This document shows, piece after piece, positions 13,479 through 24,154 of a stretch of DNA of 64,000 nucleotides. Below the pieces are notes generated by a model. That model was not told the DNA's origin, did no database searches, and was given only the letters and a program-made list of their open reading frames with translations. Numbering within the stretch: position 1 is the stretch's first letter; every line of letters begins with the position of its first letter. The DNA is taken from positions 1-64,000 of the forward strand of contig NZ_CDOI01000101.1 in NCBI RefSeq assembly GCF_000827555.1, in the 5' to 3' direction. Source of the stretch: Capnocytophaga canis. GTDB lineage: Bacteria; Bacteroidota; Bacteroidia; Flavobacteriales; Flavobacteriaceae. The position numbers and the translations under genes are program-made.

Positions 13479-13561
13479 AAAATAAAAAGGGTCTCTTGAA
13501 ATTTTTGTGATGTAAACTTCTTAAATTCCATTAGTAAGTGCAATTTTTTGGGATAGTTTTT

Positions 13562-13619
13562 CTCTCTTTTTCTTTGGGCTAGCCCAAAGAAAAAAGAGAG
13601 AAAGTAAAAAAACTTTCTC
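13562..13619. repeat. Long palindrome followed by a second hairpin
   Basis: Left arm 13562-13580 (core ctttgggct) and right arm 13581-13600 (core agcccaaag) form a near-perfect inverted repeat with only one extra base; a second hairpin, gagaaagt at 13598-13605 and actttctc at 13612-13619, overlaps its end. Similar purine/pyrimidine-rich palindromes occur as dispersed intergenic repeats in Flavobacteria. It could form a cruciform or act as a terminator, but no intact gene ends here. Confidence 0.7.
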
Positions 13620-13840: not shown

Positions 13841-13868
13841 TTCTGAAAAACTTTTTCGTAAAAGTAAA

Positions 13869-13899
13869 AATTGCGAGATTATCGTAAAATCTCGCAATT
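13869..13899. terminator. Hairpin terminator, copy 1
   Basis: 12-bp perfect stem aattgcgagatt / aatctcgcaatt with 7-nt loop atcgtaa. Read on the minus strand it follows the small membrane-protein gene and is followed by TTTTT, as a terminator. A nearly identical hairpin lies at 15456-15488. Confidence 0.8.
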
Positions 13900-13911
13900 C
13901 CATGAATAGAA

Positions 13912-14196
13912 TTAATTATAAAAAGTAGACGAAATTAATAACACTATGGTTATCAGGTTAATAATAAATATAAGTCTAAAGCTATTATCTTTTTTTATTA
14001 CTTTTATTAAACTAAAAATAAACATAAATAAAAGAAATAAAATCAATGGAATAGTCAGTAGTTCACCGAAAAAGCTAACAGAACCAACCATTATTTCATT
14101 ATTTAGTGAATGATAGTTAATTAACAGTAAAAATACAAAGTAACAAAAACAGAAAATACTTCCTGCCAAAAACCATCTTTGAGAATTTGTTTTCAT
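13912..14196 (-). CDS. Small hypothetical membrane protein
   Basis: 94 residues with three predicted transmembrane helices (about residues 9-27, 40-65 and 72-90) and a short positively charged loop KVIKKDNSFR between the second and third. No family is recognised. It ends 13 bp from hairpin copy 1, and structured element copy 1 lies 94 bp upstream, the same arrangement as the unrelated gene at 15493-15687. No TAnnTTTG is visible upstream on this strand. Reality as a gene is supported by its length in strongly hydrophobic sequence and by the matching terminator. Confidence 0.6.
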   Translation of the reverse strand: MKTNSQRWFLAGSIFCFCYFVFLLLINYHSLNNEIMVGSVSFFGELLTIPLILFLLFMFIFSLIKVIKKDNSFRLIFIINLITIVLLISSTFYN

Positions 14197-14290
14197 ATAA
14201 AAGTATGTTATAAATTAGTTATTTCACTGATTTTTTGAAGATTTGTTATTCACTTATGGAGATATATCAACAATGAGATTTTAGTATATC

Positions 14291-14436
14291 ATATTTTTGC
14301 ACTATTTTCCTATGAAGAAACTTCTCGTAGCTTAGAAATCTGTCAGAAAAACCTTTAAATGACATTTATCTTCGTATAATTTCCGCCAAGATAATGTTTT
14401 TTGCTGTAATAGGAAAATTATTTTGTAAAATGTTTT
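14291..14436 (+). ncRNA. Duplicated structured element, copy 1 (candidate small RNA)
   Basis: 146-bp element that recurs at 15771-15918 with a few substitutions. Outer stem ATTTTCCTAT (14304-14313) pairs with ATAGGAAAAT (14409-14418); inside are a small hairpin gaag-aaa-cttc and a larger one acatttatctt / aagataatgt with a 15-nt loop. TATTTTTG at 14292-14299 on the plus strand matches the -7 promoter consensus just before the outer stem, and a perfect inverted repeat ttttgtaaaa/ttttacaaaa follows it. It may be a small RNA, an mRNA leader structure or a small mobile repeat; strand and function are inferred only. Confidence 0.45.
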
Positions 14437-14856
14437 ACAAAACAATAAGTAATTGATTATTAGAAATTTTAAAAAATCATAAAGTTTTGAAAATATGATA
14501 ATTATATGTTGTACAGGAATGCGTTACAAAAAATGGAGTACAGTTTGTCGGTGTTAAAAATATATTTATATTCGCAACGAGTTTTAAAATTATTGTTCAT
14601 AACTATTTTTACTTTTACTCTTTTTAAAACAAGAAGCAAAGATTTTGGTTTCATAAAGAAACTGCTCAAAAACCATGTTGATATTTGTCAGCGTATACTA
14701 AGAACTACTCAAAAAATATTTTTTTTGTTTACAGTTTATAAGCATACAGAAATGGACATTTATCTTTCCTCCGGTAAGGACATAGTGAGTCAATTTAAGT
14801 TTATTATAGGAATAATTTGAGAATCTACTTGAATTACTTCTCTGAACATGTACTAT
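14437..14856. other. Non-coding stretch after structured element copy 1
   Basis: About 420 bp of very AT-rich DNA. A 104-codon frame at 14506-14820 has a lysine/phenylalanine-rich, family-less product and is judged spurious. No clear promoter for the 14857 gene was found. Confidence 0.4.
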
Positions 14857-15456
14857 ATGAAAAAATCAATTACATATTTGCTTATTATATGCGGTTTTTG
14901 CCTTTCAACAGCACAAAATACCGTAGAAAATGACACTATTTTTCTTAGTGAAGTCGTGGTAACACAATTTCAAAAAGAAAAATTAAATAAAATAGCTACT
15001 AAGGGAAGAAAAAATTACAGCATAGGAAGCTATTATAATACGTTTTTTGCTAATGAAATTAAAGTAGATAAGTGTTTTATAATCAAGAAAATAGTATTCT
15101 TTATAGAAAAAATAGAGAAAAATTACGACACGAAAGCAACCTTTGAATTAGTATTTTTTTCAGTAGGAGAAAACGGATTTCCTGATAAAAAATTGCATAG
15201 TCAAACACTATTATTTGAGTCTGTTAGGAAAAATAAATTGGAAATAAATATCGAAGATTTATCACCTAAATTCTGTGAAAATTTCTTTGTTGCACTGAAA
15301 AAAACTGAAGATACAAACAAAAAGTCAACAAATTACAGGATTTTAGGACACATGAACAAACGAAAGGAAATATACCTAAATTCAGAAAATAAAGGTTGGC
15401 ACAAACTCGAAGGAGGTAATTTAGCAATAGAAATTTATTATATAGAAGAGAAATAA
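14857..15456 (+). CDS. Secreted hypothetical protein, related to the 23264 gene product
   Basis: 199 residues with a signal peptide (MKKSITYLLIICGFCLSTAQ). ATG 14848 would add three residues; ATG 14857 gives the canonical signal start. After cleavage comes NDTIFLSEVVVTQFQKEKLN, resembling the linker that follows a carboxypeptidase-regulatory domain, then a C-terminal domain resembling that of the 23264 protein: KGRKNYSIGSYYNTFFANE here against TFHKKGVFLNSVPFGYEKA there, and a VFFSVGENGFPDKKLHSQTL strand block against FYNVDDRGFPKETLSKELF. The N-terminal carboxypeptidase-regulatory domain of the longer paralogue is absent. Function unknown. Its stop codon abuts hairpin copy 2. Confidence 0.7.
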   Translation: MKKSITYLLIICGFCLSTAQNTVENDTIFLSEVVVTQFQKEKLNKIATKGRKNYSIGSYYNTFFANEIKVDKCFIIKKIVFFIEKIEKNYDTKATFELVFFSVGENGFPDKKLHSQTLLFESVRKNKLEINIEDLSPKFCENFFVALKKTEDTNKKSTNYRILGHMNKRKEIYLNSENKGWHKLEGGNLAIEIYYIEEK

Positions 15457-15488
15457 AATTGCGAGATTATAGTAAAATCTCGCAATTT
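15456..15488. terminator. Hairpin terminator, copy 2 (between convergent genes)
   Basis: 13-bp perfect stem aaattgcgagatt / aatctcgcaattt, loop atagtaa, beginning at the last base of the plus-strand gene stop codon and lying just after the minus-strand gene at 15493. Placed to terminate both. Near-identical to 13869-13899. Confidence 0.82.
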
Positions 15489-15492
15489 AAAT

Positions 15493-15687
15493 TCAAAAAA
15501 ACGTTTTCTTTCCGAAAATATATCTAAAATAGTAGTACACATCGGCAAAAGGTACCCAAATATAAAACGATTTGTTTGTAATATTCTTATTATAAACCAA
15601 GTGAACGCGGACTTTATACTTTACGAACACAATAAAGCCTAACAAAAGTAATATTGATATTCCAAATAAAATAGGTAGTGTTTCCAT
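15493..15687 (-). CDS. Small hypothetical membrane protein
   Basis: 64 residues from METLPILFGISILLLLGF, with one clear N-terminal transmembrane helix, a basic stretch KYKVRVHLVYNK and a second aromatic-rich segment (WVPFADVYYYFRYIF). A longer frame could start at 15726, but the A/T-rich stretch before 15687 and the immediate hydrophobic start favour the shorter one. It is not visibly homologous to the 94-aa protein at 13912, although both lie between the same terminator hairpin and the same structured element. No function assigned. Confidence 0.5.
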   Translation of the reverse strand: METLPILFGISILLLLGFIVFVKYKVRVHLVYNKNITNKSFYIWVPFADVYYYFRYIFGKKTFF

Positions 15688-15770
15688 AGTTAAAAATTTT
15701 ATCGTACCACTTAAACATGAACACAACCAATCCTATGGTTTTAATTTAATGGACTGATTTTTAGAACATT

Positions 15771-15918
15771 ATATTTTGCACTATTTTCCTATGAAGAAAT
15801 TTCTCGTAGCTTAGAAATCTGTCAGAAAAAAACTTTAAATGACATTTATCTTCGTATGATTTTCGCTAAGATAATGTTTTTTGCTGTAATAGGAAAATAA
15901 TTTTTGTAAAATGTTTTT
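15771..15918 (+). ncRNA. Duplicated structured element, copy 2 (candidate small RNA)
   Basis: 148 bp, near-identical to 14291-14436. Outer stem ATTTTCCTAT (15783-15792) with ATAGGAAAAT (15889-15898). The substitutions between copies lie in the 15-nt loop, in a single-stranded linker and in one hairpin position where C becomes T, keeping a G-T(U) pair. The -7-like TATTTTG before the stem is one base short of the consensus. The palindrome that follows copy 1 is degraded here. Confidence 0.45.
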
Positions 15919-16152
15919 AGAAATAATATAAATCACAGAAAATAAATAAGTTAATTGTTTGATGTGTCTCTAAAGTTACAAAAAAAATATAATCAATATT
16001 AAAGAGAAATATAGGATAGAGCTCTATGTTACTATGTGGTTTTAATCATAATAAATTCTAAAAAATATTTCAGGAGTTTAACCTAATTAAAATACCCTAA
16101 AATTAAGTTTGTTTTTTCAAAATAAAGAACGACTTTTGCAGTTGCAATCCAT
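15919..16152. other. Non-coding gap before the small membrane-protein gene
   Basis: About 230 bp of AT-rich sequence after structured element copy 2, with no gene recognised. TTTG at 16135-16138 lies 14 bp before the -7 element of the next gene, shorter than the usual spacing. Confidence 0.4.
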
Positions 16153-23263: not shown

Positions 23264-24154
23264 ATGAGAATCATATTGTTATTTATCATAAGTTTTTCGA
23301 TGTATAGCCAAACATTGGAAGGCTTTGTTATTGATTCTCTGACCCAAGAACCGCTTCCGTATGCAAATATTTCTTTTTTGGATAGAAATATTGGAGTTTC
23401 AGCAGATGAAAATGGATTTTTTAAGTTGGATATATCAAAAAAAGAGTCTGAAAATGTATTAATATCGTTTGTAGGTTATGAAAGTAAGATTATTTCATTA
23501 GAAAAGTATGTTGAAAACAGAAAATATACGCAAAAAATAAACTTATTGCCCACAACCGAAGTTTTAGAAGAAGTCGTTTTAGTAGAAAAACAATTGCAAA
23601 AGGCAAAAAAAACGAATGTAGGGACGTTCCATAAAAAGGGTGTTTTTCTGAATTCTGTTCCATTCGGATATGAAAAAGCGGTTTTTATTGAGAATAAAAC
23701 ACGAAAATCGGGACAAATAACCGCTGTTACGCTCTATTTTAAGTCAGAAACGAACGAGCTTTATGAACCACTTGAAGCCTTTTTCAGATTGAATTTTTAC
23801 AACGTGGACGACAGAGGTTTTCCAAAAGAAACGCTTTCAAAGGAGTTGTTTTTGATAAAACCTGGCGTAAAACAGCAAAAAATTAGGGTAGATTTATCAA
23901 ATTATGGATTACCTTTTCCGGAAAAAGGGATTTTTGTTGGAGTAGAAGTGATTAATCCGACAGAAAAACAACCAAAAGGGAGTTTGTACGTGACAAAGCC
24001 GAGTTTAGTCCATACGCATACGGATAAAAACATCGTAATAACACGATTTCGAGGTAAGGAATGGTATAAAAATAGTAAAAAATCGACTTTTAAAAAGGAA
24101 TATTACGCCGTTCCGAGAGTGAAAATGGAAGTTTTATTGCCAAATCGTGAATGA
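23264..24154 (+). CDS. Carboxypeptidase-regulatory-like domain protein
   Basis: 296 residues. A short signal peptide (LLFIISFSMYSQ) precedes a CarboxypepD_reg-like beta-sandwich (about 17-90) with the typical GFVIDSLTQEPLPYANISF and ISFVGYESKII motifs seen at the N-termini of TonB-linked outer-membrane proteins. A second domain of about 180 residues follows. Here no barrel follows, so it is not a receptor. The second domain recurs in the shorter protein at 14857. Function unknown; cell-surface or periplasmic location expected. It sits between nadE and purD with gaps of 45 and 43 bp, probably one transcript. Confidence 0.82.
   Translation: MRIILLFIISFSMYSQTLEGFVIDSLTQEPLPYANISFLDRNIGVSADENGFFKLDISKKESENVLISFVGYESKIISLEKYVENRKYTQKINLLPTTEVLEEVVLVEKQLQKAKKTNVGTFHKKGVFLNSVPFGYEKAVFIENKTRKSGQITAVTLYFKSETNELYEPLEAFFRLNFYNVDDRGFPKETLSKELFLIKPGVKQQKIRVDLSNYGLPFPEKGIFVGVEVINPTEKQPKGSLYVTKPSLVHTHTDKNIVITRFRGKEWYKNSKKSTFKKEYYAVPRVKMEVLLPNRE

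Follow-up and report, generated by a model that had tools for sequence, protein, structure and literature searches.

The closest described counterparts of the locus analyzed here are cis-regulatory leaders of the Rfam type and, in gene order, the Fab1/Rfab1 pairs of Bacteroides fragilis, which are bacteriocin-immunity pairs for which orphan immunity genes without a toxin have also been reported (PMC8406203). Two accounts of structured-RNA discovery in human-associated bacteria do not name Capnocytophaga in their main text (PMC8040213, PMC7160235). In Capnocytophaga canis we found a putative leader RNA that shares with Rfam-type leaders its position in the 5′ UTR, compensatory base changes, a loop and tail that hardly vary, an upstream promoter and a fixed distance to the start codon. 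It differs from them in belonging to one genus in the searches made and in preceding unrelated exported proteins rather than the genes of one pathway, and neither the element nor its relatives matched a covariance model of Rfam 15, even at E values up to 1–5. Unlike those of a riboswitch, its downstream genes carry no metabolic hint. The likeness to Fab1/Rfab1 is one of gene order alone: a secreted protein without known domains, then a partner gene. We give a probability of about three in four to a joint explanation that combines a promoter with a folded 5′ leader RNA, cis control through a common partner, local duplication, and orphan partner genes.

Two cassettes in the window

The window is the whole stretch of DNA analyzed, 64,000 nucleotides of contig NZ_CDOI01000101.1. 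On its minus strand, the order element, small membrane-protein gene, hairpin occurs twice (Table 1). The first-pass annotation had described pairs of hairpins and elements in shared order and orientation around unrelated genes, and this description is confirmed. The hairpins, aligned over 13867–13899 and 15455–15487, are 97% identical at a spacing of 1588. The elements, about 145 bases long and side by side (14295–14447 and 15774–15928), align without gaps in three blocks (98%, 94% and 85% identity) at a spacing of 1479–1481, with a mean column identity of 95% across 157 columns. When this genome was searched at the DNA level, copy 2 matched copy 1 far past chance (E = 3e-59) and no third copy was found. 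The annotation had named homology of the two inner genes as evidence against its reading; BLASTP detected none between the 94-aa and 64-aa proteins (E = 9.3), and they are unrelated as claimed. Neither protein belongs to a family in Pfam, NCBIfam or PADLOC, and the weak genus matches of the 94-aa protein (L037, L038) were discarded, as they lie in unrelated larger proteins or span stop codons.

Table 1. Predicted features of the two cassettes and of the gene between them (window coordinates)
Feature	Position	Strand	Remarks
Terminator hairpin 1, AATTGCGAGATTATCGTAAAATCTCGCAATT	13869–13899		downstream of the 94-aa gene
94-aa small membrane protein	13912–14196	-	first ORF, 95 nt past leader 1
Leader RNA copy 1	14292–14379	-	covariance model R1, 95.6 bits; covariation
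Copy 1 helices	P1 14369–14373/14314–14318; P2 14360–14364/14341–14345; P3 14334–14340/14319–14325	-	
Copy 1 loop AAGCUACG and tail GUGCAAAA	14326–14333; 14295–14302	-	
Upstream portion of the repeat common to both copies (promoter region, TTTTACAAAATAATTTTCCTATTACAGC...)	14380–14440	-	
Copy 1 degenerate -7 box, TATCTTGG	14389–14396	-	same place as TATCTTTG in G013
202-aa secreted protein	14848–15456	+	outside the leader cassettes; 42% homologue in G002
Terminator hairpin 2	15456–15488		between two convergent genes, 202-aa (+) and 64-aa (-)
64-aa small membrane protein (from ATG)	15493–15687	-	first ORF, 83 nt past leader 2
Leader RNA copy 2	15771–15859	-	covariance models R1–R3, 98.9 bits with R1; covariation
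Copy 2 parts: P1 GAAGA/UCUUC; P2 UGUCA/UGACA; P3 hairpin loop AAGCUACG; tail GUGCAAAA	loop 15805–15812	-	
Copy 2 degenerate -7 box, TATCTTAG	15869–15876	-	

The secreted-protein gene does lie between the cassettes as annotated, but it is on the opposite strand and is of a separate family. Its stop codon abuts hairpin 2, and a weak paralogue occurs at 23264–24154. This paralogue and a second distant relative (L121:2387-3253) carry an extra N-terminal domain, and one relative adjoins another leader of this genome (on contig C182), as the 202-aa gene adjoins the window leaders. The structure model of the 202-aa protein, mostly beta, was of low confidence (mean pLDDT 54) and too poor for use. Outside the cassettes, a long near-perfect hairpin (13559–13603, core TTTCTTTGGGCT/AGCCCAAAGAAA) lies just upstream of a minus-strand BrnQ-type transporter gene; the Rfam matches obtained there look like chance miRNA matches.

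The first cassette hairpin was far more stable than its shuffles on both strands (z of -5.5 and -6.3). Each small gene has a copy of the hairpin downstream, the second one between convergent genes, and we therefore conclude that it is a bidirectional terminator. This genome has a third copy, directly after the rnr gene. Twenty-seven of its bases recur letter for letter twice in C. felis, flanking a Fic gene that matches SoFic in a defence-gene library, and in a 400-kb C. felis sample it was the only repeating stem among those counted. No copy of this hairpin was found beside the leader in the other leader loci fetched, the nearest being two copies about 2.4 and 3.7 kb from the leader in C. felis locus L120. 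The hairpin is accordingly no fixed component of the frame, and its proposed role as the frame's second half falls away, since elsewhere it stands apart from the leader and here it also ends rnr.

The rnr region is 87–92% identical in DNA between this genome and C. felis. In the latter, hairpins of the window type bracket the SoFic-like candidate defence gene (L159:12033-13443, G005:C5); at the matching place in this genome there is one hairpin (L070:2671-2699, C138) and a different gene of 135 aa. Since the occupant differs, the spot beside rnr looks, on comparison of the two sequences, like a site of gene replacement.

Fold, relatives and strand of the leader

On the minus strand the element is predicted to form a three-way junction: P1, a purine/pyrimidine helix, closes the junction, P2 is variable, and P3 bears the nearly invariant loop (A/G)AGCUAC(G/A), with a conserved tail, GUGCAAA. 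The folding of single sequences was unremarkable, minimum-energy folding recovering P3 and often replacing P1 and P2 with an alternative, so the structure rests on the comparison of relatives. Unguided RNAalifold, given a sequence-only MAFFT alignment of five members, returned the same three helices, with two-sided changes in 8 of 17 pairs. Across 15 members, 13 of the 17 pairs showed two-sided changes, 94.8% of the cells could pair, and the covariation score of 0.495 was reached by none of 500 shuffles (slid controls, 0.06–0.16); the 11- and 15-row alignments were fitted to the model, whereas the five-row alignment was not. The P3 loop may possibly pair with the tail: a G-C to A-U exchange in one subclass provides one covarying pair, but in the window subclass this pairing works only with a bulge. 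The idea that the leader holds a conserved upstream peptide was dropped, the short ORFs not being alike.

The first distant relative, L008, came from a blastn search of the genus and shares with the window copies a minus-strand hairpin with loop AAGCUACG and the tail GUGCAAA. That search gave many low-score matches, mostly by chance, of which L008 and G005:C8:1919 (L027) alone turned out to be homologous. A pattern search for loop and tail gave three copies in this genome, one in C. felis (G005) and one in G013, all in the same context, together with three unrelated matches; the reversed control pattern gave none. In a wider collection of genome contigs the exact pattern occurred in C. felis and at three unrelated places. 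Iterated covariance models raised the count to 15 members, spread over 9 of the 20 Capnocytophaga genomes; none of them scored under 41.9 bits and the next match reached 27 bits. The C. felis member lies on contig NZ_BLBC01000008. The element is thus not unique to this locus; uniqueness of the pair was what the annotation had held would count against its reading. No true member was found outside the genus among 397 family genomes (R1) and 396 order genomes (R3), and none was credible in viral contigs, phages or plasmids. Matches in two family genomes (L071, L073) and L072 were judged chance, and the two R3 matches from beyond the genus, L141 and L142, turned out to be a terminator and a coding sequence. 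By these searches the leader appears confined to Capnocytophaga so far, and distant members elsewhere are possible because the stricter filters of the large family and order searches lose weak matches (R1 missed known weak members there).

Ten of the 15 leaders had the Bacteroidota -7 box TAnnTTTG at most 110 nt upstream, where 1.06 would be expected. Outside the window, the first ORF of every one of the 12 intact loci begins 25–38 nt past the leader, compared with 83–95 nt in the window. These regularities bear on a second account, in which the repeat is itself mobile or a site of recombination (MITE-like, or an attachment site) and shuttles cassettes, its structure acting in DNA. Such an element would explain why two near-identical copies accompany different genes and why the genes between identical hairpins differ between this genome and C. 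felis. Yet a MITE is recognized by multiple near-identical dispersed copies, and this genome holds just two, both local, at the DNA level; the remaining members are divergent and mostly single, with a fixed spacing to the start codon, G-U-rich pairing and a promoter, and no duplicated target site was noticed beside the copies. We consider this account unlikely.

The window copies themselves have -7 boxes that are off consensus and first ORFs 83–95 nt away, so the two leaders may, judging from their sequence, be weakly active or decaying. A plain duplication of promoter and UTR beside an unrelated gene, kept similar by recency alone and devoid of a regulatory role, would account for these degenerate promoters, for the 95% identity of the copies and for a decaying tandem copy in G017. 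It does not account for members in nine genomes that keep structure, loop and tail through compensatory changes, nor for window copies whose differences all preserve base pairs, and we rate it slightly less probable still than a mobile element. Under the preferred reading of a regulatory leader, local duplication of promoter and leader remains the simplest and most likely origin of the near-identical window copies.

About 29 paired cells are G-U on the minus strand and would become A-C mismatches on the opposite one; the functional RNA is therefore that of the minus strand, which is the sense strand for the small genes. Least probable of all is the reading in which a promoter of its own (TATTTTTGCAC at the left end) drives a small RNA from the plus strand, perhaps a type I antitoxin with the small membrane proteins as toxins: a plus-strand TAttTTTG at the left end of copy 1 (~14292–14299) fits the -7 box, the element ends can pair, and small hydrophobic proteins are positioned divergently, but the G-U pairs and the minus-strand TAnnTTTG boxes oppose it, the downstream genes are mostly lipoproteins of 174–350 aa rather than tiny toxins, and the structured RNA lies on the sense strand rather than antisense to a toxin mRNA as in type I systems. 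The compensatory base-pair changes, together with a location on the coding strand downstream of the promoter and ahead of the start codon, point to the element being a structured 5′ leader RNA of the minus-strand genes.

Genes behind the leader

By one crude rule, all 14 intact first genes look exported (41% of 370 sampled genes) and 10 of 14 look like lipoproteins (13% of the same sample), counts that take related loci separately, so that the excess is smaller in independent terms. The first genes belong to several unrelated families. The annotation's idea that diverse small membrane proteins share a recurring regulatory frame is thereby supported and broadened, to unrelated exported proteins, mostly lipoproteins, across the genus. 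In several of the lipoproteins the cysteine is followed at once by acidic residues, reminiscent of K-(D/E)2, the lipoprotein export signal of Capnocytophaga (PMC5080379). In G013 the leader precedes an NVEALA protein (PF14055, at the Pfam cut-off); the other leader-controlled proteins tested gave no match to this family. A structure model of one leader-controlled lipoprotein was unusable (mean pLDDT 43).

In G000:C2, G017 and C. felis, three loci in all, the gene behind the lipoprotein encodes a small protein with two to four predicted membrane spans; the C. felis order is leader, 350-aa lipoprotein, membrane protein of the 105-aa type. On C182 of this genome the leader stands directly before a membrane protein 57% identical to the C. 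felis one, and DNA similarity between the two loci starts at the start codon of the membrane gene. In G017 a second, decaying leader lies 340 nt upstream of the intact one, and behind it the start of the lipoprotein persists as a decayed copy, a signal-peptide remnant (L116/L147:2111-2196, G017:C50). From the C182–C. felis comparison and the G017 tandem pair, we conclude that leaders duplicate and that genes downstream of them disappear or give way to others. The window is in keeping with such turnover, with two near-identical leaders, two different small membrane genes and no lipoproteins. The idea of an exchangeable cassette is thus partly supported, in that the genes at a leader change; cassette exchange by recombination at the leader would be a plausible way.

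The lipoproteins of the G000:C2 and G017 loci (L117:2483-3340 and L147:930-1739) are 72% identical over their last 61 residues and 40% over the remainder. This contrast suggests that the C-terminal part, which is glycine-rich and hydrophobic and ends in YYRSSNC, may be the working part, and the two could be peptide precursors. Both are followed by genes for small membrane proteins and for larger lipoproteins of one shared family.

A proposed common partner for envelope genes

Our preferred explanation is that the element comprises a promoter and, for the minus-strand genes, a folded and conserved 5′ leader RNA with a tail, GUGCAAA, that ends about 30 nt ahead of the start codon. The leader would act in cis on the mRNA of the exported protein, probably on its translation or stability. 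One common partner, be it a protein, a small RNA or a metabolite, would recognize the AGCUAC loop and the GUGCAAA tail, and through it scattered, fast-changing envelope genes would answer to one signal. The two window copies would most likely have arisen by local duplication of the promoter–leader segment. More speculatively, gene order and the analogy with Fab1/Rfab1 raise the idea that the small membrane genes of the window might be orphan partner genes, immunity-like, of operons composed of leader, lipoprotein and membrane protein.

A wider proposal, which we regard as doubtful, is that a genus-specific leader RNA controls an exported antagonism arsenal and its membrane immunity proteins, that new genes recombine in behind it, and that the window holds two orphan immunity genes. 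If it were true, the RNA would stay while the weapons change.

The leader adds to Capnocytophaga an undescribed, putatively structured RNA, found through two copies in one window. As read here, it suggests that in oral bacteria of people and pets the fast-evolving surface lipoproteins and the small membrane proteins belong to one shared regulon, and its nearly invariant loop and tail offer a direct target for finding the binding partner.
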